Shown: positions 67-25,231 of the stretch, in pieces | Position numbering within the stretch: position 1 is the first letter of the stretch | Layout: each line of letters starts with the position of its first letter | DNA from: a virus | Virus record (IMG/VR): IMGVR_UViG_3300027985_001704 | Coordinates: 1 to 37,176 of that record | DNA: 37,176 nucleotides | Strand: one strand, 5' to 3' | Program-made: the position numbers and the translations under genes | The notes under the pieces: generated by a model | Told to the model about the DNA's origin: nothing | Databases searched by the model: none | What the model saw: only the letters and a program-made list of their open reading frames with translations

Positions 67-3000
67 TTATTTGTCTATCCGGTCATAATACATGCGATTG
101 AAGGTGGAAAAAATCTCCCGCTGCCGGTCATCAAGCACGCGGAGCTTTGGTGCCGTTTCCGCATCGGACAACCCAGATTTGTAAAGCGCTTTCTTCTGCT
201 CATCGATATTCTTGATCCGGCTATAGACATTATTGACGGCTCGACGCATGGACAGAATCTCAGCGTTCTCCTTTCGGAATGCGGCCAGGTCCCGCTCGGC
301 CTCACCACGAAGACCCGTAATGCGCGCCAACTTGACGTTGTCCTGCAGATTCTTGAGCGTCCGGTTGACGCCATGAATCTCATCATAGTTCTCCTTGAAC
401 CGGGTCCGATCCTCCCAGATACCAGGACTTGCATAGAATCTGCGCATGATGGGCATATCATTGAAGCTGACATCGCGCCCTGTGGCCGGCGAGAGCGCCG
501 CGGCCGTCGTCCTTGTGACCATCCTTCCGACGCCGCCCGTGGCCTGCTCGAAAAGAAGATCGAGCGTTTCAGGACTGACGCTGAACCAACCTGGGACGCC
601 TGCAGAGCCATCGCCGATTGTATTGAGCCAGCTGGCTACGGCCTTGCTCGGCCCAGAAACGGAACGCCAGTACCTAGAAGAATCCGGCTGGTCCTCGTAG
701 ACCTTTGTGGGCATGAGCGGAGTCCCAAACGGAGTGCGCTCGAAGGCGATGTCTACAGCTGGATCGAAGATGGTCGGAGCAAGCATACGCACCCAGCCGT
801 GGGAGTTCTGTAGACTCGCCGCCGACTCAAGAGGATTGAAGTTGTTCAGAAACGATCCAAGAATGCCGGCGCTGGCATTACCGGCATCCCCGCGCCCCAT
901 GAACATGTTGGCAAGATTCTGGCCAATTGCCCAGAAGAACGCGTAACCATAAGGAATGGGAATCCTGATGGCCCGCTCGGTGCCGGGCAGCATGAAGACG
1001 ATGTTGTTGTTCCGTGTCTCCTCCGAGATGCCGAAGTATGCCGGCTCATCATCATCACCGCTGCCGCCGGCAAAGGCATTGAGCAGGGCCAGGGAAAGCG
1101 ATGCGCCGACGATGACGCCAAGATGCTTCGCCGCACGCCCGGGATTATTCTTCATGGTGCGCAGGATGGTAAGCGTACCCTGGATGCCCGCATTGGCGAA
1201 CATGTAGAGCGTATTGATGGCCTGGCCGAACTCGCCCTTGCGGTCGAAGTCGACGGTGATCTCACGGGCCATCAGAGCTGCTTCCTCATTGCTTGCGCCG
1301 GCCTCGACGGCAGCAGAGAAAACGGCAAGACGCGTACTATTTTCGAAGATGTCGGAGGTATTCTTGAAAAGCGCCTCGACCTTGGACGAAAACGCCCTGA
1401 CGTTCTCCATCGTCGATCCCTTACCCTGCAGGACGCGCACAGACTCAGAAATCGAATTCATGGTTTCCTCGGCGCTCTCGAGATAGGCCCACTGAATTTT
1501 TCCGCCGAACTGCTCGAAGGCCGGGATGTGCCCGAGAAGCCTGCGCTGCACTTCGCTGAAACCACTCGTGTCCTTGCCGAAATTGTGGGCGTAGAGAACC
1601 TTCATGGAACTTGGGACAGTCTTGAGGACCTGCTTGGCAAAGACCTTGCCGTCCATGCCGGCAACATTCTGTCGGATGGAAAGCGTATTGAATGCCGCAC
1701 CAAGATCGCGGAAGGTGTTGGGGATGAAAAACTCCACGTTCATCGAGGTGTTCATCTTGATGAGCCATCTATTAACCACACCAAGAGCCTTCATGAGCCT
1801 GCCGGCCTGCGGCGGATTGTTCAGGAATTCAAAGCCGCGACGCAGCCCTTCATCCATAATCCGAAAGTACCGCAACTGCCCACCCTCGTAGACCGGGATG
1901 TAGCCGTTATCGCGCTCAAACTCCTTCGCCTGACCCCGCTTCATCACGCTGACCTGTGTCGGCATGAGGAAGATGCCCTTGGCATTAAGCTGGGCCTCGG
2001 CCGTCGTCGCGGGAGTATCAGGCATATCCTCGATGAGCTGATCCATCTCTTCACGTGAAATAAACCGCTGGAACAACGTGGGATTGGCGTGTGTCTTGAT
2101 GAAATTGTTGATCGTCTTGTTAGTATGGTTGGCCCCGATTTCAGCAATGCGAGCACGCAGACCGGCGAAGGTCGCACCGACAGTAGTCCGCTGCTCATCA
2201 TAGGGAAGACCCATCAGGGTCGGGTTTGCATCACCGTATTTGAATCTGTTTCCGCCCTGGAAGTCGAACTGCTGACCGACACCAAGGATGCTATCGGGCC
2301 GTCCGGGAATCGGGACGAAATACCTGTAGGTCTGCTGCAAGGTATCAAAAGCCGCCTGGCTGACGATGCCGCTTTGCACACCAAGCTCAAGAGCAAACTT
2401 GTTCGTCTCGACCATCTTGTTGACCGCGTCCATCAGCCGACCGGAATATGTGCCGTCAGCGTTTTCACGGATATAGCCGGCGTCGATGTAGGCATCGATC
2501 CATCCCTGAGCAACATCATTGCCCATGCCCGATATCGCCGGAGAATTTTGAGACCTGATGGCTTCTGAGCGTTTGGATCTCATCCTTCTAATCCTCGCCT
2601 CAAGAGAACGACGACCGGCGGCCAAGGCGGCCTCATCGGCAAACATCCCGGAGGCGACCTGGTCGTCAAAACGCGCCCGCATGCGACCTTCAAGTCGATC
2701 AAGATAGGCAGTCAGCCCGACATCGTTACGCTCAAGGGCGTGCAGAGCATGTGCCAAATTGGCCGCATCCTCGACATCGAAAGGCTGACCCCTGAAGATC
2801 TGCTCGAACTCCTTCGTGTATTGGGCCGCATATTCACTCAGACCACCAACACGGCTTTTCTGTGTACGCAGGCCGAACATGAAGTTCTCCTCCGGCGCGA
2901 TGGTCCCCTCATAGTTGAGCACCGACCGTTCCAGGGAATCCCAACGGCGCAGATAGTCTGTCAGCTTGGTCATCAAGGTGTCGGCGGTATTGGCCCGGTA

Positions 3001-6000
3001 TTCTCCAAACTCGTCATAGCGCCGCAGATTCTCGCCGGGGATAAACTCGGGCGAGAAAAGCGCAGAGAATCCCGTGCGACCGGCTACGCGGCTCCCGGCG
3101 AAGGCCCGGGCCAAAACGTCACGAACCTCAAAGGATGTGGCCGCCTCTTCTGCCCTGAAGCCCAACTTGGTCATAAGCTTACGGAATGCAGTGACGACCA
3201 TGGCCGCAATGCGGTCAATGAGCGTGCCCATGTGTTTGTTCGTCGGCCGGCCAGCGGCGGAATCCATCCGCACCTGCTCGGCCAGGCCGGCCATGTACTC
3301 CTCGGCATGTTCGATCCGCTGCTGCCTGGTGGCCACGGCGTTCCGGTCATTCTTCAACTGCGAATTGAAAACGCCGACCATAAAGTCCTCGTACTGCACG
3401 CCAAGGAGCTTGCGCAGACCAAGGTGACCAATACCCTCGTGGTAGATGGTCCGGTTGAATTCATCCCAGTCGAAACTTCCCTCCTTGGTCGCATGCTGGC
3501 CCAGGAAGATGTGGATGGTGCCGTAGCGGTCCACAAGGGCAAGGGCGCCTTCCAGGCGCAGCTTCGCGTTGGCGTACTCGGTCGGGCTGGCCGACTGAAT
3601 GCCGCGAAGCAGCTCGGGCTGCAGCAGATTTTTCGTCGCCGGATTGTGGGCAAACGTCATGCCTGTTTCCCGGATGCCGTGATACTGCACCCTCGGAACC
3701 TGGCCGCCGAAGACGGTCAGCTCTCCAAGGATGGCGTCGGCGCGCTCCTTCAGGAAGTCGTAATGCGGCACGTTGTCGGCCTTCAAGGCATGCGTGGACT
3801 TCGCCCCTCTGGACCGCAGCTTTCCAAGCAGGGCTTGGGCGATTCCCTGGCCGTACATCCTGCCAACATCGGAATACTTGATGATAGCTCGTTCAATCTT
3901 GCTACGCAGTACCTCGGACATGGCAGGGTTCTTGAAAATCTCCTCATGATGGCGCTGTACGGCTTTGAGCAAAGCCTCACCGAAATCAGTGAGTACCGCG
4001 CGCTCTCCAAACTCCACGGGGACTTCGCGGCCGGCAAGCATGATGGTCGCGGAGCGGCCATCCTTGGACCCGGTGTACTTTCCAAGCTCATAGGAGCCGG
4101 GCGCGATATCTTCGACCAGGAGCAAAAGGGCGTAGTCGGCCTGACTGATCTTCATCTCACGCAGAGGAGGATATTCCTCACGGTTCGCCGCGGCCTGGTC
4201 CTCGGTGATGAGCGAGTAGCCGATGCCATCGGTGCCGGTGAAGGCAACGATTTCACTGGTGTCCCTGGCTCCAAAACTCTCGCCATCGACAGATAGCTTG
4301 GAGCGGGCGATGCTCATCAGCACATCTTCGGGGTCGGCATAGGACTCGGCCAAAAGCGTCTTGGCATTATCGAGCGTGGGCTTCTCGGAGAGCCTATTGG
4401 CGATAGAGACATGCTGCGCATCACCATGCCCGAAGGTGTCGATGATCGCCTGCACAAGGTGTGCATCAAGAGCTTCGGAGAACTCGGCCGGATAGAGCGT
4501 TTCCTGATCCGGGAAGCCGGAGCTTTCCTTGGTCTTTGCCTTGAACTCCTCATTGCTCCAGACCTTGCGGCGCTCTTCGATGGAGTCGCCCATCATCGCC
4601 AGAGCAATGTCGGCGGGGAAGCCGCCGGAAGCCAGGTCGTAAGCCAGGGCCCCAACGTCAATGTTGGAATTGATGGACGTATCGCGCCCGGTCAAAAAGG
4701 CATTCAGGGCCTTGTCCTCAAGAGATACGATCCGGCCATAGCCGCCCCACTTCAAAGCCTCACGCAAGGCACTGGCTGCATCCTTACTGCCACTCCAGGG
4801 ATTGTTGCCATCCTTCTTTTTCGGAGCGAGCCTGGAATACTCATCAAGATAGGCCCGCAGCAGGCCTGCCAGCGACATGACCTTGCGGGCCATTGCTTTA
4901 TCTGAAGCGTTCAACTGATTGTAGGTGGTGGCACCCTTGTCAAAGGTTGGGATTTCAATCTGAACAGCGTGCCGGGCATAGGCCAATCGGGCCGCGAGAT
5001 TGGACGGAGCGCCGACACTGCGGTTGTGCAGGTTGGTGTCCATCGAGGCTGCAGCCAACATGTAGAGGGCAACATCGCTGTAGCCGGATTCCATGAGCGA
5101 CCGGATATTCGTGGAAAGCACCCCGGTAGAAAATGCCTTCGCGATGGTCAGATCGCTACCGGCACGACCAAGTTTTTTGAGAATGCGGTCCACAGCGAGG
5201 CGGGCGGTTTTGGGTAGGCTGGCAAAAAGACCAGTATGACCGGACTGCAACTCTTCCGCACGGAAGGAATAGTCCATGACGGACGAGATCATGGCATCAG
5301 CCGTCCGTCTTGCTTCCAGAATTTCGGCCGGCGTACCGTCAGGCTCCATAAGGTCAAGAAGCCGCTGATCTTCATCGTCAAGTTCCATGATGCCAACCTT
5401 GCCTTGTGTGGCCGGAGCATCACGGTCATCCGCAGCGGTAGAATCTTCGACCTCATCAGCCTCAGCAAAATTTTTCAACGTCTCGCTAGCAAACTCCTCG
5501 ACATCCTGTTCTTCAACCTTGCTATCAATATAGCTATCAATGGCATCTTCAACATTATTCATAACAGACTGACTCTGCTCTTCCGTAATGATGTTGAAGC
5601 AAACGTAGTTATCAAGCTGTTCTTCAATAAGAGAAAGTATTACGCCATGAGCATTGTTAACCAGAGCTTCACTGTTTTTATCACCCCTGAATTCTTTAAC
5701 GACATTTACGGCATTATTGAAATCCTTGTTGCCGATAATGTTCGAGATTACTTCGCGGATAAGACTTTCAGATGCCATATCGGCATTCGACTCACCGATG
5801 TGTAGAATGCGTTCCTGCTCGTTACCGTCGAAGGTGACAAGCCGCTGTTGACCAGAAACGTCAGTGATAATTTTCGCATAGACAGCTCGGTCAACGATGG
5901 CAGATTTTGCACGGTATGCGATTCCAGCAACAGCCTTGCGATTTTCTCTGGCCTGCAGACCGGACATGATCTCGTAGCTGTCCATCATCCTGAAGCCATC

Positions 6001-9000
6001 TTTTTCACTGAAACCAGCCATGATGTCCCATACGCGAGGAACAACGTGGAGTTGGAGATTCGAGAGTTCTTCGAGACTATGAATCTTCACCGAGCCTGTG
6101 TCGGACTGAATCCAGGAAAAGCCGATTGAGCCATTATCCTTCATCACCGGCTCCATCAGCGAGTAGCCAAAAACCTGCTTGTTATCGACATAACCGGAGG
6201 TACGCCCTCCAACCAGTAACAGTCTGTCACTATTGCGATCATACAGCATGGCTCCGGGGCCAACCCGGCGAAGATCCTGATACTGACCCTTGGCCGGCAA
6301 GAGGTCCTGAACGGCGGCGTAGGTGCTACCAGGAGCCGAGAAGAAGGTGCCCTCGCGGCCGTTGAGTCCATATTCCATATCGCGGAACAAGGACCATGGG
6401 GCAATGCGGGCCGCATCCTTTTTGAATTCACCCATAACCGGAACGAACTTGTTCCCCGCGGTCTTTTCAGCGAACCCGGCCTTAAACATGAGTTCCAGAC
6501 GATCTTTCTGTAGCCCCTTATAGACGAGTCCGTTCATACCCTTTTCTGCGTTGCGCAGGCCGAGGCCAATAAGGCCAAGAAGAATCTCCTCTTCATGCAG
6601 TTCTTGTATCGCGCTGTCTTTGGACACAAGACTTTTCGCCTTGCGAGAAAGATCAACCAACTCCTGTATTTCGCCTTCTGTAACAGAAGGGAAAACTGCG
6701 CCATCGATCACTGAAACCTGATTGCTCCCGTATTTCGCATTCAGGGAAGAAACGGCATCGGACACGATACGGAACATTTCATTGTTGGCGCTTGTCGATG
6801 TGGTGTCCATCGAGGCAAAATCGCCCTGATCGCTCCACAGGGCATTCGTGGAGGTGTTTTTCGGGAACATGAGTTCAGCAACGGCCGCATGGTTGGTCAG
6901 CACACCGAAGGACCTGAGCATATCCACGATGCGATTGTGGAGCCCAATGACATTCCTGGTGAAGCTGGCGACGGAATCATGGCCGGAGATGAGTTTGGCG
7001 TTCTCGCGTCCAGGGCCAAGTATCGCGGTGGTTGTGACGGCATCACTGCGAATGGATTCGGCAAACTTGAAGGCCTCTTCAAGACGGGCCTTGTCGGCCT
7101 CATGCATTGCGGCACGGTCATTGACATCCATCGCCAAGATGGTCTGCAGCTGCTCGGCATCTTCCAGGCTGATGAACCCTGCGATATTTGCCGACAGGTC
7201 AATCTTTGCGGAACGACTGGCAATCGAGTCGTACTTTTCGGCTCGGGCCTGCCCGGCGCGCCCGGAATAAACGCGCTCGGCAACGAGCTTGCCGATGAGC
7301 TTGGCGTAGAGTCCCTTGGCCTGGTCGGCCATGCGTTTCATGCCAGGCACAAATTCCATGGCCCTGCGGACCTCGGAAACGATGGCGTCGACATAGGCCT
7401 CGTAATTTCCCAGGTTGGACGGAGGAACACGCTCAGTAATTGGCGTGGCAACCTTGCCAGGAGTATTCAGGATGGCAACGCTGTCCATGTCTCCATAGGA
7501 CATCTGATCCTTGTCCATGCGCTTTCTGTTTGTGCGAAGATTCTTTTCAAGATCATAGAGCATCGTACGCGTCTGCTTGAGATCGCGTACAAAGTTGTTG
7601 AAATCCTCTCCGTAAAAAGACTCCATGTTCATATAGAACGTGCTTTCATCATCGACGATCTGGCTGATTAGAGATGTTGCGATACGAATGCCATCCTTCA
7701 TTTTCTTCATGAACTCGCCGGTACGTTTCGTTCTGAGCCCAAGACGTTCCTTCTTGTATTTTGCACGAATGGCAGAACGTTCATCGGCTTTTGCATTATC
7801 AAGTTCTGCTGACATCTTTGCGCGCAGACGATTGAGTTCACGAACTGCATCAGCCGACCTGTCTTCCGCAGGCCCAACATTCATTGCGTACGACATGACG
7901 CCGCGCAAAAATTCATTCAGCTCACGGGAAAAAATGAATCTTGCATCACCGCGCTTGATAGAATCAGAATATCCTTTGGCAGCATCCTTGATTTTCTTCA
8001 GATCCTGAGAGAGCACTTTCGCAAATTCTTTTGGAGCAGTAGCCGCAAGAACACGCATCTGGCGATGTCTGGGAAGAGCCTTGAAGGCATCAATAGCGAT
8101 TTGCTGCTGATACTGTGAACCAAGTCTGCCTTCTTTTCCAGCACGCAGAAATTCCTGCCGCACAGGTTTCCCGAGATAAGCAAGAAGATTCGCCTTGAGC
8201 ATCGCATCAATCAGCTTTCTTTCAGCAACCTTCTGCTCATCGGCAGCGGCATTCATGTCCGTAAAGGGAATAATTTGATCAGAGTCACGACGCTCCCCAA
8301 ATCGATAGTCGGGTTTGGTAAAAAGCTCTCCAGCTACCCTAGCGACATCGAAATCATGGATTCTTTGCATATCCTCCAAATAGGTACTTGGCTTTGCTTC
8401 GGCAGGCTGTGCCGTGGAATCCACACCTTCTTCGGCGGCAAAACGAGGATCTTCTTCACGAGGAGCCTTCTTTTCCTGTACCGGCCAAGTCTTTGACACA
8501 TGCTGCAACTCGCCATCAGACAGCCGTTCAAGAACCTTGAATTTGACCTGATAGTAACTTTCGTCGCTACCCATGAAATCTTTCTTGTCACCAAGATACT
8601 GGGGATACATGGCCGCATCCCAGCCTTCTAGCTTGGACCATTCCTCGGGAGAAACTTGTGCAATAGGCGTTATCGACTCAACATGGGCGGTAATCAATCG
8701 TCCACCTTCAGCCATATAGAACGGCTTGCCCTTGGACAGTTCCAATTTTTCGATCTGCTTGGCAGTCCTGGTCGTAGCAGTCCGCATACCTTCCCAGATG
8801 GCATCAAAGGTGTTGGTCACGCCGGCATCGAGAACGTCCCGGCGCATAGTTCTGCCACGCTCAGGATTGTGCTCATAATTCATGGGGACAAGAGGACCGT
8901 CGTTGCGAATGGCAGGCCAGTTTGAAACTTGCCTGTTTTCGACTGAATTGCCGTCCAAAATAGAATCAAGACGAACCCTCCAGTCGTCCTTAGCCATATT

Positions 9001-12000
9001 TATAACAGGGATGCCTTTACGCGAAGCAAGGTCAATGGCCTGTCCAGTTCCACCAGAATTTATACTTCTGTCTTCACCTGTCTCAATGCCATCTGGTGTC
9101 CATGCTATAACAAAATCTACAGGTGTATCTAATTTTTTACCAAAAATCTGAAACGTATTTCTTGCCTGCAATTTTTTCGCGTAATCACCAAGTTTGTCCC
9201 ACGCTGGATGAACTTCCTTGGCGATAGATAGTGTTTCATCGTTTGCATCCTTTGCCTTAAATACAGTTGACTTTCTTGTGCCAGAAAAAAAACTAATATC
9301 AGCTCCATCAGCATCTCCTGTATTAAGATGATAGCCCCTGGACTCAAGCTCAGAAGCAAGATCTTTCATTGCAGACATGATGTTTTCAGGTGTGCGACGA
9401 GATCCAATGCCAGCGTATGTCATTGTTCTCTTTGCATTGTCATAATTTGGTAGCTCTGCGACAGAACTTGGTAGATTTATTTTTTTATCGAGAACGTCAT
9501 GTTTAGACTGTATAGAGCTTTCGGTCTTATTAGACTCAGATTGACGCCAAAGCTCATTATATGCAGCCTTCAACGACAGCATAAACAACCCATCCTGACC
9601 AGTCCATCGATCTGTCTTTATGGTCTTTCCATTCCTTATAAGATCATGCGATGCGCGTCTTAATTTGGCCCACCCTTCATCAAAACCTTTGCCATCCTGT
9701 AATTCATCCAAAAGCTCTGGATGTTGTTCAAGTTTAGCGACCAATATCTTTGTCATAAGCTCTTTAACGCTATTATCAGACAAGTCACTAAGAGACTTTT
9801 TGCCTTCTTGGTATGCATCTTCAGATCTTGCATATTCTTTGTCATTAAAAACAACAGGAATACGTGCAAAATTTGAAAGTTTATGACCAATCCCTGTTTC
9901 ATAAGAACTAATATTCAGATACTTCTTGGGCTCTGCCTTGGGCTCTGCCTTGGACTCTGCCTTGAGCTCTGCCTTGGGCTCTGCCTTGGGCTCTGCCTTG
10001 GGCTCTGCCTTCGCAACCTGAGCCTCGCCGACAATCAAGACGTTCTTGAGTGGCTGATTATCGGCCAACATCTTGCTCATCTCATCAGCAGTCAGGTGAG
10101 CCAACGTGCTGTCCAAAACGTACTTATTCTCGGGATTGGCCTTGGCGTGATTCAGAAAGATAGCAAAATTGCGCATGACGGCAGCGGCCGGCACCGGCTT
10201 TCCAGAGGCGGTCACGGGAAGACCATAGACCTTTCCGTTCAGGCCCGTCTCACGATTACTCACGCCCTTGACCTGAATGGCACCTTCAGGAACAACCTCG
10301 ACGCGCTGCCATTCCTTGACCGTCTCGGCCTGCGGACGCTCGACGGCACCGGCCATCGACTCCTGGCCGAACCGCCTGGAAGCCTCACGGTGGGCGGCAA
10401 GCAATGCCGTCGATCTGATCCCCGTATTGTCCGTGTGGACAATATGAGCCACGGAGCCCTGGATGAGACTGCCAACCTGCTCGAAGGTGGGCGTCAGCTC
10501 GAAGCCCATCTTGCTGAAAAACTCAAGAATGCGATCCCGCAACCAGACGATCCAGTGTGGAAGTTGCTTCTTGGTGAAATCTGTCATGTTGGCAAGCTGA
10601 CCAAGGAACTCATGGAAGAAAGCATCATCAGCCATCTGCTCTTCCATCGTCTTGCCTTGAAGTGATGTGAAAATCTTCAGGGCGTCATCGTTCTCGACGT
10701 AATTACGGACAACACGATCATAGGCCTCCTTGAAAATCATCTCATCCTTATTCATCTTGCCCTTGATCTGCAGGGCTTTGACGAAAGAGTTTCTGAAATT
10801 ATTCCAAGCCTTCTCGCCACCGTATTTGGCAACCATGGATTCAAGTCCATGATGTACGCCGACTTCATGATAGAAAACAGAGAGCACGCCGCGCTTCGTC
10901 TTGAATTTCTCAGGATCGAACACGGCAGTGCGGTCACCAGCAAAATACAGGCCCATCGTGTACCGGGCCAGGCGGTCATAGTTGATGAGACCGGCCTTGC
11001 GCAGTTTTTCGTAGGTAGCTTCGCCAAGGTGGTCCACAAGGGTGTCGCGGAAAAAGCGGAACTTTTCCAGGGCAGAGTCCATATCTTCGGCACCACCGAA
11101 CTCCGTGCCGTCGTAGGCCTCAATCGGAATGGCGTCATCCTCGAAACCGCGTGACGCCATAGACCACTCATCATCAATTGTGGACATCGGCGCGCGGCCC
11201 TTACGCTGCATCGTCGGACGCTCTTCCTTGGGAGTAGGCAGTATCTCGTTGCCATCCCGTTTCGTCAAAACCTGAGGTGCAACAGCGGCAGCCTTCGTGG
11301 CCTTCTTATTGTAGACCCATTTATCAAACTGTTCCTGCGTCATCTCGACGATGGAACCAAGGCCATTCCAGCCCTTTTCATAGTTGGCGAGATAGATTTC
11401 TTTGGCCTGCGCTTTGTCTTTTGCGCCAAGGACGACCTTGTGCTCATCAAACTCACCAGTTTCAGGATTGTTCTGATTGATGACATAGACGTTTCTATCT
11501 TTGGCTTCTTCATTGTTGGCATCAGACGTAACGAAAGCGTCAACATGGTCCTTATCGGCACCAACACTTCCCTTGATGTATCCATAATGATGTTGCATGG
11601 TCGTTGACCATTCTTTCCCATTCTCGTCCTTGCCAGAACGTGTGGACCCCTGCGGATTCTGGATGGAAAGATTGTGGCCGTAGACCTTGACCGGAGCGAC
11701 GGGATAGTTCTCGGCGGCTTTCTGGGCATCCGTCGGCTCGGCTTTTCCGTTCAGCGGAGATGTGGCCGCCTGGTGGGCCTGGCGGTCAAGGTCGGATTGA
11801 ATCAACTCATGCTCACCGATACCAGGAATTTCTTCGTCAACTGGATCGGGCAAAACCTCGTTGGCATAGCGTTCCAGATCATCGGGGGCGGGGACTGCCT
11901 CGGAAGCCTCATCGCCGGCCTCGGCCATCAACCTGCGTTCCTCATCGCTTTGCTGGGTTGCCTGCGTCGTCTGCTGCGTTGCCTGATTCGTGGTAAGCCC

Positions 12001-14049
12001 GGCGGCCAGATCGTGCGGTCGCTTACCCTCGGTCGGAAAGACGAACTCATCCTGGCCGCCATGGCCGCGTGCGGAATGTTTGACAACAAGCTCGGCAGGG
12101 AGCGTCACTTCTGAAACAGCACCATATTTTTCGGCCTTGGATTTATCCGTGGTCCACCATTGCCCATCTGCCTCATTGGCGGAATTCTCACCACGGTAAA
12201 GCGTGACAGGCGTGCTGGCGTCGGGCTGAGACGTCTGCTTGCCGGCACGCAAATCCTGGGCGGCAGTGACAATCTGTTCAGCCTGCGCCTTAGCTGCATC
12301 CACACGCTTCTGAATTTCGGCAGGATCGGTTACGCCTTCGGCCCGGGCCTTGCGGCCTTCGACAAAAGCGGCGATGCTGACCGGGTCGACAGTGCCCTCT
12401 TCGAGCTTCTGGATGCGGCCATCACGCATGAGATTCTTGAGCTGACGGACGCCAAAGGCCTTGCCATTCTCCGACGGCAACGTCTCATTGATAAGCGCCG
12501 CGGCATCGGCATACGACATGCCCTTGGACTCATTCTCGACATAGCCGGAAAGAGCCTCAAGATCACGACGATTCTGCTCAAGCTTTGCCTGAATGCCAGG
12601 GAAGTCAGCGCCACCCTTGGCAAGAATTTCCTCCTGATTCTTGATACGAGCCTGCAGGTCCTTGATGTGCGCGCCGACATCGGGCGTCTTTTCCATTCCA
12701 AGTGCCGTCTTGGCACCACCAATAGCCTGCGTAGCGACCGCAGAACCCATACCGCCGATGGCACCGGCAATACCGGAACCAAGCACTTCGCGCAGATTGT
12801 CGGAAGTCATCAGCTGGAAATCTGGATCGGAAAAATCAAGGTTGATCAGCGAGGAAATCTCCTGCAGGGCTTCCTGCGTGAACTCTTCGGGCATCTGCTT
12901 GGCAGCTTCGCCGAGCATATTCTTGGCGACATTGAGTACGGCACCAAGGGCACCAGGATTGGCCCGGCCAGAACGCACGACCTTCAAGATATCCTCGACC
13001 GCTTCGGATGCACCCTTTCCCCAGAGTTTGTCGAAGGCCCGGGACGAACCGCCGAATCGCTCAAGCATACCCGACGCGAGACCGGTGGCGACAGCGAGGC
13101 CTCCGCTGGCCTGGTCAATAGCGTGCAGACGAGCGGTGTGCTCATCCATGCCCTGAGCCTGAAATTTTTGTGCAAAGTAGTCCACAGCCTGAGAGAAATT
13201 CCCGCCCGTCTCAAGCATGGCCGTGCCGAGTACCTGGCCCATAGCGCCGCCGGCAAGGCGCATCGACTGCGTCTTGGCCAGATTGAGCGCCACGGACTCC
13301 TCAATACCCTTTTTCATCATCTGCTGAGCCTGACGCTTGACGAAACCCTGAACGACGTTTCCAGCGATACCCTTCTCAATGCCAGCCGCAGCTCCTCCGG
13401 CCAAAGCGCCGGCACCACCGCTTAGAAGACCGAAGGCCATCGAGGGGAACAGATCGCCCATAGTCCCCTGAACCCAATCGACGGCGCTTCCCAGATCATT
13501 GACCTGGGAGAAATCGAAAATCTCCCCTTCCTTCTCCGACATGATCGTCTTGGTGGGATAGAGGGATGCCTGACGCATCTGCTCTTTGTAGACGTCACCG
13601 AACCAGGACGCCAAGCCTTCTCCAAGCTTTCCCGGCAGCAACTTGGACGAACCGAGCATGCCAAGGCCAGCCAGAAGGCCACCAGTTTTGTGAATACCGC
13701 CGACAACGCCACGCGCAAAATCGCCCATTTCTGATTCATTCTTGACGCGTGTCATTTGATCTTCACGTTGTTGAAGAAGATTTTTTGAGAATGATGTCGC
13801 ATCAGTGAGAAACTGATCCATACCATTCGATTTTGCCCAATCTTCAGGGCTTGCAAACTTATTACCGTTAGCTATGTCTCTATTATACAAGGATGTGAAT
13901 ATGCTATCAGGAGTATATCCGTTATCGTTAAACTCATCAAAGTTATCAGAGTACTTCTTCATTGCCCTCTGACCAAGATTCATTGACGTAGACGCCTCAA
14001 CAGGCTGACCCTGCAAGTCCTTTTCTTCGTACTGAGTAGACACATCCAT
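67..14049 (-). CDS. Giant polyvalent (LPD38/DarB-like) virion protein, 4660 aa
   Basis: Probably a virion-carried protein ejected with the DNA to protect it in the new cell. Modules seen by eye, with approximate residues: Gly/Ala-rich hydrophobic stretch 203-225; ART-like (YRGE, WWTTD) 610-690; inorganic-pyrophosphatase-like (HHYGYIKG, ADKDHVDAFV) 785-905; zincin-like YHEVGVHHGLE near 1058; seven KAEP-type repeats 1347-1374; NADAR-like (LSNFARIPV, SEDAYQEGKK) 1376-1520; SLOG-like (YAGIGSRRTPE, GDADGAD, GGTGQAIDLA) 1540-1690; ASCH-like 1735-1835; second zincin-like YHEGIGHLGLR near 3533; LPD38-like region 4090-4560 with a membrane segment at 4308-4328. Start ATG follows AAGGAG. It is the last gene of the late operon. 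Phage polyvalent proteins of this class are known to combine such enzymes; the exact combination, and activity of any module, is inference. The NADAR-SLOG part is AT-rich relative to its flanks. Confidence 0.9.
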   Translation of the reverse strand: MDVSTQYEEKDLQGQPVEASTSMNLGQRAMKKYSDNFDEFNDNGYTPDSIFTSLYNRDIANGNKFASPEDWAKSNGMDQFLTDATSFSKNLLQQREDQMTRVKNESEMGDFARGVVGGIHKTGGLLAGLGMLGSSKLLPGKLGEGLASWFGDVYKEQMRQASLYPTKTIMSEKEGEIFDFSQVNDLGSAVDWVQGTMGDLFPSMAFGLLSGGAGALAGGAAAGIEKGIAGNVVQGFVKRQAQQMMKKGIEESVALNLAKTQSMRLAGGAMGQVLGTAMLETGGNFSQAVDYFAQKFQAQGMDEHTARLHAIDQASGGLAVATGLASGMLERFGGSSRAFDKLWGKGASEAVEDILKVVRSGRANPGALGAVLNVAKNMLGEAAKQMPEEFTQEALQEISSLINLDFSDPDFQLMTSDNLREVLGSGIAGAIGGMGSAVATQAIGGAKTALGMEKTPDVGAHIKDLQARIKNQEEILAKGGADFPGIQAKLEQNRRDLEALSGYVENESKGMSYADAAALINETLPSENGKAFGVRQLKNLMRDGRIQKLEEGTVDPVSIAAFVEGRKARAEGVTDPAEIQKRVDAAKAQAEQIVTAAQDLRAGKQTSQPDASTPVTLYRGENSANEADGQWWTTDKSKAEKYGAVSEVTLPAELVVKHSARGHGGQDEFVFPTEGKRPHDLAAGLTTNQATQQTTQATQQSDEERRLMAEAGDEASEAVPAPDDLERYANEVLPDPVDEEIPGIGEHELIQSDLDRQAHQAATSPLNGKAEPTDAQKAAENYPVAPVKVYGHNLSIQNPQGSTRSGKDENGKEWSTTMQHHYGYIKGSVGADKDHVDAFVTSDANNEEAKDRNVYVINQNNPETGEFDEHKVVLGAKDKAQAKEIYLANYEKGWNGLGSIVEMTQEQFDKWVYNKKATKAAAVAPQVLTKRDGNEILPTPKEERPTMQRKGRAPMSTIDDEWSMASRGFEDDAIPIEAYDGTEFGGAEDMDSALEKFRFFRDTLVDHLGEATYEKLRKAGLINYDRLARYTMGLYFAGDRTAVFDPEKFKTKRGVLSVFYHEVGVHHGLESMVAKYGGEKAWNNFRNSFVKALQIKGKMNKDEMIFKEAYDRVVRNYVENDDALKIFTSLQGKTMEEQMADDAFFHEFLGQLANMTDFTKKQLPHWIVWLRDRILEFFSKMGFELTPTFEQVGSLIQGSVAHIVHTDNTGIRSTALLAAHREASRRFGQESMAGAVERPQAETVKEWQRVEVVPEGAIQVKGVSNRETGLNGKVYGLPVTASGKPVPAAAVMRNFAIFLNHAKANPENKYVLDSTLAHLTADEMSKMLADNQPLKNVLIVGEAQVAKAEPKAEPKAEPKAELKAESKAEPKAEPKKYLNISSYETGIGHKLSNFARIPVVFNDKEYARSEDAYQEGKKSLSDLSDNSVKELMTKILVAKLEQHPELLDELQDGKGFDEGWAKLRRASHDLIRNGKTIKTDRWTGQDGLFMLSLKAAYNELWRQSESNKTESSIQSKHDVLDKKINLPSSVAELPNYDNAKRTMTYAGIGSRRTPENIMSAMKDLASELESRGYHLNTGDADGADISFFSGTRKSTVFKAKDANDETLSIAKEVHPAWDKLGDYAKKLQARNTFQIFGKKLDTPVDFVIAWTPDGIETGEDRSINSGGTGQAIDLASRKGIPVINMAKDDWRVRLDSILDGNSVENRQVSNWPAIRNDGPLVPMNYEHNPERGRTMRRDVLDAGVTNTFDAIWEGMRTATTRTAKQIEKLELSKGKPFYMAEGGRLITAHVESITPIAQVSPEEWSKLEGWDAAMYPQYLGDKKDFMGSDESYYQVKFKVLERLSDGELQHVSKTWPVQEKKAPREEDPRFAAEEGVDSTAQPAEAKPSTYLEDMQRIHDFDVARVAGELFTKPDYRFGERRDSDQIIPFTDMNAAADEQKVAERKLIDAMLKANLLAYLGKPVRQEFLRAGKEGRLGSQYQQQIAIDAFKALPRHRQMRVLAATAPKEFAKVLSQDLKKIKDAAKGYSDSIKRGDARFIFSRELNEFLRGVMSYAMNVGPAEDRSADAVRELNRLRAKMSAELDNAKADERSAIRAKYKKERLGLRTKRTGEFMKKMKDGIRIATSLISQIVDDESTFYMNMESFYGEDFNNFVRDLKQTRTMLYDLEKNLRTNRKRMDKDQMSYGDMDSVAILNTPGKVATPITERVPPSNLGNYEAYVDAIVSEVRRAMEFVPGMKRMADQAKGLYAKLIGKLVAERVYSGRAGQARAEKYDSIASRSAKIDLSANIAGFISLEDAEQLQTILAMDVNDRAAMHEADKARLEEAFKFAESIRSDAVTTTAILGPGRENAKLISGHDSVASFTRNVIGLHNRIVDMLRSFGVLTNHAAVAELMFPKNTSTNALWSDQGDFASMDTTSTSANNEMFRIVSDAVSSLNAKYGSNQVSVIDGAVFPSVTEGEIQELVDLSRKAKSLVSKDSAIQELHEEEILLGLIGLGLRNAEKGMNGLVYKGLQKDRLELMFKAGFAEKTAGNKFVPVMGEFKKDAARIAPWSLFRDMEYGLNGREGTFFSAPGSTYAAVQDLLPAKGQYQDLRRVGPGAMLYDRNSDRLLLVGGRTSGYVDNKQVFGYSLMEPVMKDNGSIGFSWIQSDTGSVKIHSLEELSNLQLHVVPRVWDIMAGFSEKDGFRMMDSYEIMSGLQARENRKAVAGIAYRAKSAIVDRAVYAKIITDVSGQQRLVTFDGNEQERILHIGESNADMASESLIREVISNIIGNKDFNNAVNVVKEFRGDKNSEALVNNAHGVILSLIEEQLDNYVCFNIITEEQSQSVMNNVEDAIDSYIDSKVEEQDVEEFASETLKNFAEADEVEDSTAADDRDAPATQGKVGIMELDDEDQRLLDLMEPDGTPAEILEARRTADAMISSVMDYSFRAEELQSGHTGLFASLPKTARLAVDRILKKLGRAGSDLTIAKAFSTGVLSTNIRSLMESGYSDVALYMLAAASMDTNLHNRSVGAPSNLAARLAYARHAVQIEIPTFDKGATTYNQLNASDKAMARKVMSLAGLLRAYLDEYSRLAPKKKDGNNPWSGSKDAASALREALKWGGYGRIVSLEDKALNAFLTGRDTSINSNIDVGALAYDLASGGFPADIALAMMGDSIEERRKVWSNEEFKAKTKESSGFPDQETLYPAEFSEALDAHLVQAIIDTFGHGDAQHVSIANRLSEKPTLDNAKTLLAESYADPEDVLMSIARSKLSVDGESFGARDTSEIVAFTGTDGIGYSLITEDQAAANREEYPPLREMKISQADYALLLLVEDIAPGSYELGKYTGSKDGRSATIMLAGREVPVEFGERAVLTDFGEALLKAVQRHHEEIFKNPAMSEVLRSKIERAIIKYSDVGRMYGQGIAQALLGKLRSRGAKSTHALKADNVPHYDFLKERADAILGELTVFGGQVPRVQYHGIRETGMTFAHNPATKNLLQPELLRGIQSASPTEYANAKLRLEGALALVDRYGTIHIFLGQHATKEGSFDWDEFNRTIYHEGIGHLGLRKLLGVQYEDFMVGVFNSQLKNDRNAVATRQQRIEHAEEYMAGLAEQVRMDSAAGRPTNKHMGTLIDRIAAMVVTAFRKLMTKLGFRAEEAATSFEVRDVLARAFAGSRVAGRTGFSALFSPEFIPGENLRRYDEFGEYRANTADTLMTKLTDYLRRWDSLERSVLNYEGTIAPEENFMFGLRTQKSRVGGLSEYAAQYTKEFEQIFRGQPFDVEDAANLAHALHALERNDVGLTAYLDRLEGRMRARFDDQVASGMFADEAALAAGRRSLEARIRRMRSKRSEAIRSQNSPAISGMGNDVAQGWIDAYIDAGYIRENADGTYSGRLMDAVNKMVETNKFALELGVQSGIVSQAAFDTLQQTYRYFVPIPGRPDSILGVGQQFDFQGGNRFKYGDANPTLMGLPYDEQRTTVGATFAGLRARIAEIGANHTNKTINNFIKTHANPTLFQRFISREEMDQLIEDMPDTPATTAEAQLNAKGIFLMPTQVSVMKRGQAKEFERDNGYIPVYEGGQLRYFRIMDEGLRRGFEFLNNPPQAGRLMKALGVVNRWLIKMNTSMNVEFFIPNTFRDLGAAFNTLSIRQNVAGMDGKVFAKQVLKTVPSSMKVLYAHNFGKDTSGFSEVQRRLLGHIPAFEQFGGKIQWAYLESAEETMNSISESVRVLQGKGSTMENVRAFSSKVEALFKNTSDIFENSTRLAVFSAAVEAGASNEEAALMAREITVDFDRKGEFGQAINTLYMFANAGIQGTLTILRTMKNNPGRAAKHLGVIVGASLSLALLNAFAGGSGDDDEPAYFGISEETRNNNIVFMLPGTERAIRIPIPYGYAFFWAIGQNLANMFMGRGDAGNASAGILGSFLNNFNPLESAASLQNSHGWVRMLAPTIFDPAVDIAFERTPFGTPLMPTKVYEDQPDSSRYWRSVSGPSKAVASWLNTIGDGSAGVPGWFSVSPETLDLLFEQATGGVGRMVTRTTAAALSPATGRDVSFNDMPIMRRFYASPGIWEDRTRFKENYDEIHGVNRTLKNLQDNVKLARITGLRGEAERDLAAFRKENAEILSMRRAVNNVYSRIKNIDEQKKALYKSGLSDAETAPKLRVLDDRQREIFSTFNRMYYDRIDK
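8979..9927 (-). other. AT-rich NADAR-SLOG module inside the polyvalent gene
   Basis: Residues about 1375-1690 of the giant protein. The DNA here is plainly richer in A and T, with codons ending in A/T (Lys AAA, Asn AAT, Leu TTA), than the GC-balanced flanks. The encoded sequence has a NADAR-like start (SNFARIPVVFNDKEYARSED) and a SLOG-like Rossmann part (YAGIGSRRTPE, then GDADGAD and GGTGQAIDLA). The KAEP repeat marks the N-terminal edge. Composition change plus repeat edge suggest a module acquired separately from the rest of the gene; the domain names rest on motifs only. Confidence 0.6.
9928..10011 (-). repeat. 7 x 12-bp tandem repeat coding KAEP
   Basis: Seven head-to-tail 12-bp units read on the plus strand as GGGCTCTGCCTT, with one-base variants in units at 9952 and 9964. 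They code a Lys-Ala-Glu-Pro type repeat (residues 1347-1374), a charged, Pro-spaced linker. It sits between a preceding domain and the NADAR-like domain, so it probably acts as a flexible tether. Copy number may vary between related phages. Confidence 0.95.
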
Positions 14050-24388: not shown

Positions 24389-25231
24389 TCACTGATTCTT
24401 GGAACGTACGCCCTGCAAGGCTGCCAAACCACCTTCGAGTGGTTTGCGACCATCGCCGCGGGAAGTAAGAGGAACCTGCATGGCTCCTCCGTTTCCGGCA
24501 CCAACGACGGGGGCCTGCTGCTGGGCTGCGCCCTTGATTGAATTCTGCATCTGCGTCTGAAGATTTTGCATCTCAGTCTGCAGCTGGCCTGTTGCCGCCT
24601 TAGCCATATTCGCCTGATACGCGAAATAGGCAGAAACGTTGTCCATGATAGGATTCGCCTGCCGGATAGCCTGAGCCTCCGGAGACTTGACGAAGTCCAT
24701 GAAGTCAGGATGTTCGGCCAAAAACGCGTCCTGTGCGCCGCGAATCTGCTCTGCCTCTTTTTCCTGATTCAGGTCATTTTTGACCTGAAGACGAGCCTGC
24801 TCGGACAGAAGCGGGGCCGTCTGGCGGATCATTTCCGCGTAGGTAATTTCACCAGCTGTCGCCTTTTCCTGGAGGTCGGACAGCTGCTGTTCGATCTTCA
24901 TGGCCAAATCTGCGTTCGGATCGGCAACCTGCTGACCTTGCTGACCTTGCTGACCCTGACCGGCAATTTGCTGTGAGAGGGAAGCCAGTGTGCTTCTGAT
25001 TTCACCCATAAAATCCTGACCCTGCTGGCCGGCCTGATCCTGACCCTGCTGGCCGGCCTGATCCTGACCCTGCTGGCCGGCCTGATCCTGACCCTGCTGG
25101 CCGGCCTGATCCTGACCCTGCTGGCCGGCCTGGACCTGTTGCTGTTCAGTAACAGGGGCAACGTAGTCCTTGGAGTTGTCAATGACCCGACTATATGTCG
25201 GAACCGCAGTAGTTTGATCGATATTGCTCAT
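24389..25231 (-). CDS. Scaffolding protein, 280 aa
   Basis: Acidic, Gln-rich, mostly helical protein directly upstream of the capsid gene, the usual place and make-up for a scaffold that shapes the prohead. Residues about 33-72 are five perfect QAGQQGQD repeats followed by shorter GQQ repeats near 95. The middle (DLAMKIEQQLSDLQEKATAG onward) is a predicted coiled coil. The C-terminus ends in a basic tail (LAALQGVRSKNQ), as scaffolds that bind capsid often do. Start ATG has AGGAGAG upstream. Confidence 0.75.
   Translation of the reverse strand: MSNIDQTTAVPTYSRVIDNSKDYVAPVTEQQQVQAGQQGQDQAGQQGQDQAGQQGQDQAGQQGQDQAGQQGQDFMGEIRSTLASLSQQIAGQGQQGQQGQQVADPNADLAMKIEQQLSDLQEKATAGEITYAEMIRQTAPLLSEQARLQVKNDLNQEKEAEQIRGAQDAFLAEHPDFMDFVKSPEAQAIRQANPIMDNVSAYFAYQANMAKAATGQLQTEMQNLQTQMQNSIKGAAQQQAPVVGAGNGGAMQVPLTSRGDGRKPLEGGLAALQGVRSKNQ
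25014..25133 (-). repeat. 5 x 24-bp tandem repeat in scaffold gene
   Basis: Five identical or nearly identical 24-bp units in phase with the reading frame; each codes QAGQQGQD. Such perfect DNA identity means recent expansion by slippage or recombination. Just downstream in the gene (24938-24960) a 9-bp unit (CTTGCTGAC type) is also repeated. Confidence 0.95.

Follow-up and report, generated by a model that had tools for sequence, protein, structure and literature searches.

The stretch analyzed here (the window, 37,176 nucleotides) comprises positions 1 to 37,176 of the IMG/VR virus record IMGVR_UViG_3300027985_001704 and carries a minus-strand gene for a giant protein of 4,660 amino acids in which a short NADAR-like domain, a SLOG domain and an ASCH-like domain lie side by side. 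These neighbours had been noticed as motifs in the initial annotation of the sequence, and all three were borne out by profile matches, purpose-built models or predicted structures. Our best explanation, in which we place middling confidence, is that of a virion-delivered polyvalent protein with an imported NADAR-SLOG cassette that would act as an N-glycosidase or bind nucleotides and be directed against host nucleotide signals; its ejection, activity and anti-signal role are what we infer. The features on which the argument turns are:

67-14049, minus strand: polyvalent protein holding NADAR, SLOG and ASCH, a single open reading frame (ORF) with InPase and LPD38 domains and matches to phrog_14770, phrog_616 and phrog_10089, DarB-like
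9922-10011, minus strand: KAEP repeat linker, residues 1347-1376, GC-rich
9535-9921, minus strand: short NADAR-like domain, residues 1377-1505, AT-rich
9397-9534, minus strand: linker ending in LP-x7-TMTYAGIGSR, common to giant-protein SLOGs only
8941-9429, minus strand: SLOG domain, residues 1541-1703, AT-rich
8524-8901, minus strand: ASCH-like domain, residues 1717-1842, with GxRTATTR and EEWSKLEGW motifs, part of the protein backbone

Identity of the three domains

The NADAR-like region matched just two PHROGs, phrog_1017 (7.8e-5) and phrog_652 (8.8e-4), which are the families of YbiA and T4 gp30.3, and a purpose-built NADAR hidden Markov model (HMM) scored it at 22.5 bits, spread over two colinear blocks, whereas none of 2,000 shuffles exceeded 8.8; the curated threshold of Pfam PF08719 (NADAR) was not reached by the window protein. 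A sister domain was found in the related locus L044 (47% identity, 2.6e-25), and a model built from the window and L044 domains retrieved a third short NADAR in L033 (3.5e-8). The initial annotation had named structure prediction as a check on its NADAR claim, and the claim was not refuted: the AlphaFold model (18 sequences, predicted local distance difference test [pLDDT] 85.5) adopted a YbiA-like fold, with YbiA itself as the best match in the PDB (Z 8.7, root mean square deviation 3.1, 115 residues) and 8bau, a NADAR of P. nicotianae with bound ADP-ribose, as the second (Z 7.3, deviation 2.9, 105 residues), the next match falling to Z 3.5. The alignment behind this model included NADARs, so that the fold evidence is not fully independent; the Foldseek E value was weak on its own (0.47), and a search of viral folds returned weak, though NADAR-rich, matches.

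Because sequence, the L044 sister domain and the AlphaFold model agree, we assign residues 1377-1505 to a shortened, divergent NADAR. The predicted domain shares the YbiA-like fold, the catalytic Glu/Lys spacing and the two HMM blocks with the NADAR superfamily (YbiA, DarG1, T4 gp30.3), but it is without about 32-35 residues, including K75, G78, R79 and V81 of the ADP-ribose site, is missed by Pfam and is fused to SLOG. Scanning with YbiA and gp30.3 as queries gave no relative, scanning bacterial genomes for the short NADAR gave none, and tblastn with the window, L044 and L033 NADARs in 50,697 phage records gave nothing significant. The short NADAR family and the SLOG clade of giant proteins described below both appear to be new forms of known superfamilies.

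The SLOG identity of residues 1541-1703 is certain as judged from their sequence, which matched phrog_768 (2.4e-46), a DprA-like phage SLOG family, had a relative in 1,243 phage records and kept all positions invariant in an alignment of 20 SLOGs (GIGSR, GAD, H1614, RN and GGT). It is 44% identical to the SLOG of the closest named phage and up to 57% identical to those of other giant proteins. Although it carries every invariant motif of the phrog_768 family, it belongs to a separate clade confined to giant ORFs and sharing the LP-x-TMTYAG linker. The domain is related to Thoeris ThsA, which had been cited as a precedent, at the level of the SLOG superfamily, but the window protein has no SIR2 partner; the SLOG profile gave only weak DprA matches among solved structures in the PDB, ThsA not being among them, and the single PADLOC match was a weak one of PsyrA to SLOG (0.033). 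By sequence comparison the window SLOG is of the phage DprA-like type, and nothing links it to ThsA.

Pfam gave no match for the ASCH segment of the window protein or of P0002, a related giant protein described below. The motifs GxRTATTR and [ED]xWSxxEGW are nevertheless common to the ASCH segments of both proteins, of loci L029 and L045 and of crAssphage cr272_1, and an HMM built from three distant members scored the window segment at 53.8 bits, compared with at most 11.2 among 2,000 shuffles. The AlphaFold model, made from 4 sequences (pLDDT 74.8), had YqfB (Z 9.1), DUF984 (7.7) and ZmASCH (7.0) as top fold matches, YqfB being an ASCH-fold N4-acetylcytidine amidohydrolase.

An altered NADAR pocket

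The catalytic and ADP-ribose-contacting residues of NADARs were taken from mutants and from an ADP-ribose complex (PMC11543638) and mapped onto the window protein at the sequence level via the 8bau sequence, the published number corresponding to the chain index minus 2 as reckoned from the Glu/Lys spacing. Three sites were recognized:

9820-9822, minus strand: Glu1410, equivalent of catalytic E88 of the E. coli C7 NADAR (PMC11543638), in an invariant alignment column
9799-9801, minus strand: Lys1417, equivalent of catalytic K95 of the same NADAR (PMC11543638), at E+7, in a column conserved in at least 90%
9604-9612, minus strand: Asp1480 and Trp1482 (DRW), likely D130 and W133 of the ADP-ribose-bound NADAR, from alignments, inspection and the 8bau sequence

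Of the NADAR catalytic and pocket residues, Glu1410 and Lys1417 were thus found, whereas about half of the pocket was not. In the alignments the segment with K75, G78, R79 and V81 of 8bau is deleted and Y84, D86, W89 and R93 are replaced, leaving the site for the pyrophosphate and adenosine of ADP-ribose without its counterparts. The ribose and catalysis side of the pocket seems to be kept and the ADP side not, and recognition of plain ADP-ribose therefore cannot be assumed. At the third catalytic position, on the last strand, where Glu, Asp or His is expected, an Arg stands in the YbiA Glu column; His1468, present in the window, L044 and L033 domains, follows 3-4 residues later. The L044 domain, at 47% identity, likewise retains the Glu, Lys, His, Asp and Trp, a pattern that suggests selection.

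The initial annotation had proposed that the phage undoes ADP-ribosylation, and the missing ADP-binding segment argues, as far as alignments can tell, against a simple version of this proposal. In its most explicit form the NADAR would free ADP-ribosylated guanines of phage DNA from their ADP-ribose, the activity by which DarG1 counters DarT1, with SLOG and ASCH helping to find the substrate. The kept Glu and Lys are compatible with such chemistry, and the phage and bacterial NADARs tested so far share guanine-ADP-ribose hydrolase activity in vitro (PMC11125620); nonetheless, the deleted or replaced residues are those that bind pyrophosphate and adenosine (PMC11543638), NADARs unlinked to DarT1 failed to rescue DarT1 toxicity in vivo (PMC11125620) and no DNA-binding extension was identified, so that we rate this activity as improbable.

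The same truncated pocket, with its Arg in the YbiA Glu column, would also be expected if the domains were inactive or structural, that is, ligand-free relics serving as spacers in a modular giant protein. The ASCH domain could be read likewise, as it has an Arg at what we believe to be the position of the YqfB catalytic Lys. The intact set of invariant SLOG positions and the NADAR residues retained in L044 speak against decay, and we regard a purely structural role as just as improbable as guanine repair. With this shortened form, nature provides an experiment that could show which part of the NADAR pocket determines the substrate.

Probable import and recurrence of the cassette

The base composition of the gene sets the NADAR and SLOG domains apart from their surroundings. 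The GC content is 0.385 in NADAR and 0.407 in the linker plus SLOG, with a GC content at third codon positions (GC3) of 0.30, whereas the whole gene has a GC content of 0.536 and a GC3 of 0.606; of all its 981-nucleotide segments, the one poorest in GC (0.398) begins at residues 1375-1377, and the non-overlapping minimum is 0.471. An AT-rich block beginning exactly at the KAEP repeat had been claimed, and the GC minimum does cover NADAR and SLOG, but it starts just after the repeat, which is itself GC-rich (0.62), and it ends ahead of ASCH (0.51). The NADAR-SLOG block, which directly follows the KAEP linker and has less GC than any other stretch of its length in the gene, therefore looks imported.

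The only close relative found for the whole giant protein, P0002 (locus L003 107-12613, IMGVR_UViG_3300040971_000196), separates backbone from cargo:

12349-13974, minus strand: N-terminal part of the backbone, residues 26-567, shared with P0002 (blastp, 38% identity, 1e-93)
73-8901, minus strand: C-terminal part of the backbone, residues 1717-4659, shared with P0002 (blastp, 26% and 43% identity)

Between residues 567 and 1717 the two proteins share nothing, and P0002 has its own cargo without visible InPase, NADAR or SLOG; residues 568-1716 are therefore variable cargo, and the ASCH domain is part of the backbone. The three domains had been taken for one set, and a common imported origin was rejected, given that ASCH occurs in P0002 without the other two and has a backbone-like GC content. 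When IMG/VR was scanned with single sequences, neither the module nor the 915 amino acids after it had a close relative, and a scan of bacterial genomes for the backbone likewise gave none.

Recurrence was assessed in 80 SLOG loci from IMG/VR, a sample retrieved through SLOG and thus covering short NADARs that occur with it. Fifteen of these loci lie within giant ORFs and the other 65 are standalone. The window SLOG grouped with 11 giant-protein SLOGs in a single clade (support 100/99) of a tree built from 72 SLOGs, and the linker LP-x(5-8)-TMTYAG precedes SLOG in the window and in 15/15 giant loci and in 0/65 standalone ones. The short NADAR directly follows SLOG in L044 and L033, ASCH directly precedes it in L029 and L045, and a giant virion-type protein (L031 988-10185) has the order SLOG-DUF7831-DUF4326; the window order, NADAR-SLOG-ASCH, is unlike any of these. 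The varying order therefore indicates that the parts were shuffled and yet stayed together.

Seven of the giant SLOG ORFs contain a GxDFDID-type motif, which we take to be the signature of the crAss virion RNA polymerase, and several of them align with crAssphage cr272_1 gp23 around it. The cr272_1 giant protein (L109, NC_055903.1 53236-72396, with TAG read as Gln) has the DFDID motif followed by cargo that includes a canonical NADAR, DUF7831, a DUF1848 radical-SAM-like domain and SLOG halves flanking ASCH. Related SLOG, NADAR and ASCH domains are thus shared with crAss-type virion RNA polymerase proteins, but the window protein has a different, LPD38-type backbone, and no GxDFDID motif was noticed in it. 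Most of the giant relatives are rich in AT, with a GC content of 0.26-0.37 (0.48 in L031), which fits the donor side of the cassette. The RNA polymerase proteins of PhicrAss001 are virion cargo by mass spectrometry (PMC10172136), and the recurrence of the building blocks in crAss-type giants suggests that they form a portable kit by which host alarm nucleotides would be handled at entry. A bolder version, which we offer tentatively and consider doubtful, is that SLOG, the new short NADAR family and the ASCH subfamily make up a portable entry cassette swapped between unrelated ejected giants of the LPD38 type and the crAss-type virion RNA polymerase type, and that, ahead of transcription of the first phage gene, this cassette disarms a nucleotide signal of the host that is not plain ADP-ribose.

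Virion context and possible role at entry

The virion-protein context proposed in the initial annotation was supported by the two further domains of the protein, by its genomic position and by its kinship with proteins bearing the crAss-type polymerase motif:

11314-11730, minus strand: InPase domain within the variable cargo, residues 774-912 (PF18823, 8.3e-48)
448-1044, minus strand: LPD38 domain, residues 4336-4534 (PF18857, 4.8e-37)

The gene is preceded on the same strand by genes for a terminase, a portal, a major head protein and the head closure protein Hc3, and is therefore encoded alongside virion structure genes; several unrelated effector domains (InPase, LPD38, SLOG, NADAR-like and ASCH-like) are combined in a protein that, by its PHROGs profile matches, resembles DarB-like and other giant phage proteins. 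Because of the InPase and LPD38 domains, this likeness and the position after the head genes, it belongs to the polyvalent proteins as defined by Iyer et al. 2017 (PMC5512222), with which it shares a variable cargo flanked by conserved ends. The main text of that study leaves NADAR, SLOG and ASCH unmentioned, whereas the window protein has an AT-rich NADAR-SLOG block inserted beside ASCH. Most likely, the protein is packaged and ejected with the phage DNA.

Taken together, these results are consistent with a giant polyvalent protein that would enter the cell with the DNA and whose cargo region may have acquired the AT-rich short NADAR and the DprA-type SLOG between the flexible KAEP linker and the resident ASCH. 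The cassette would most likely cleave or capture a small signal or toxin of the ribonucleotide type that the host produces upon infection, because both superfamilies act on nucleotide N-glycosidic bonds or bind nucleotide ligands, and ASCH would probably add nucleic-acid or nucleoside binding. As the NADAR pocket lacks its ADP-binding part, the substrate is probably smaller than ADP-ribose or held differently. Viral couplings of SLOG, NADAR, Macro and DUF4326 domains have been described (Iyer et al. 2022, PMC9503650), those of SLOG, NADAR and DUF4326 being predicted to counter signals of the ADP-ribose type; the domain partners are the same, but those proteins are mostly standalone, whereas the window protein and its kin place them, with a short NADAR, inside giants of the polyvalent or virion RNA polymerase type.

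The main rival to this counter-defence role is a cassette for nucleotide metabolism or host takeover, such as salvage or clean-up together with the InPase of the same protein. In Pseudomonas phage K4 the genes around a standalone SLOG relative encode thymidylate synthase, PhoH and ribonucleotide reductase, and another such relative is near dCMP deaminase in RHph_Y60. However, the giant-protein SLOGs are coupled to NADAR, ASCH, DUF7831 and DUF4326 and to no biosynthetic domains, and an ejected protein would act ahead of replication, which leads us to consider a metabolic role unlikely, if somewhat less so than the two alternatives weighed above. Three observations count against an anti-signal function: the setting of the close standalone SLOGs in K4, the occurrence of the cassette in viruses known from metagenomes, for which no hosts or defence systems are on record, and the loss of the ADP-binding segment, which may have left the NADAR inactive or turned it to another target.

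There are precedents for polyvalent proteins, for phage SLOGs and for SLOG-NADAR couplings. Our literature search, which covered the text of openly accessible papers, found no report of NADAR or SLOG in polyvalent or virion RNA polymerase proteins, although such cases may be present in figure 5 of Iyer et al. 2022. The known phage counters to defences based on nicotinamide adenine dinucleotide (NAD) or other nucleotides are for the most part proteins synthesized once infection has begun, whereas an ejected cassette would act before phage transcription. Moreover, its recurrence in crAss-type giants, which are among the most abundant gut viruses, provides a concrete set of sequences for testing.

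Other motifs were observed in and around the giant protein. A TLYRGE...GQWWTTD motif at residues about 615-650 (window 12100-12210) resembles ADP-ribosyltransferase-like phage domains and had no family match. Two HExxxH zincin-like motifs occur in the window protein (P0001), YHEVGVHH at residue ~1060 (window ~10870) in the cargo and YHEGIGH at residue ~3536 (window ~3440) in the C-terminal part, while the cargo region of P0002 has a true HExxH (HEIIH) in their place. Directly upstream of the capsid gene, window 24389-25231 encodes a protein with an AGQQGQD tandem repeat, perhaps a scaffold.

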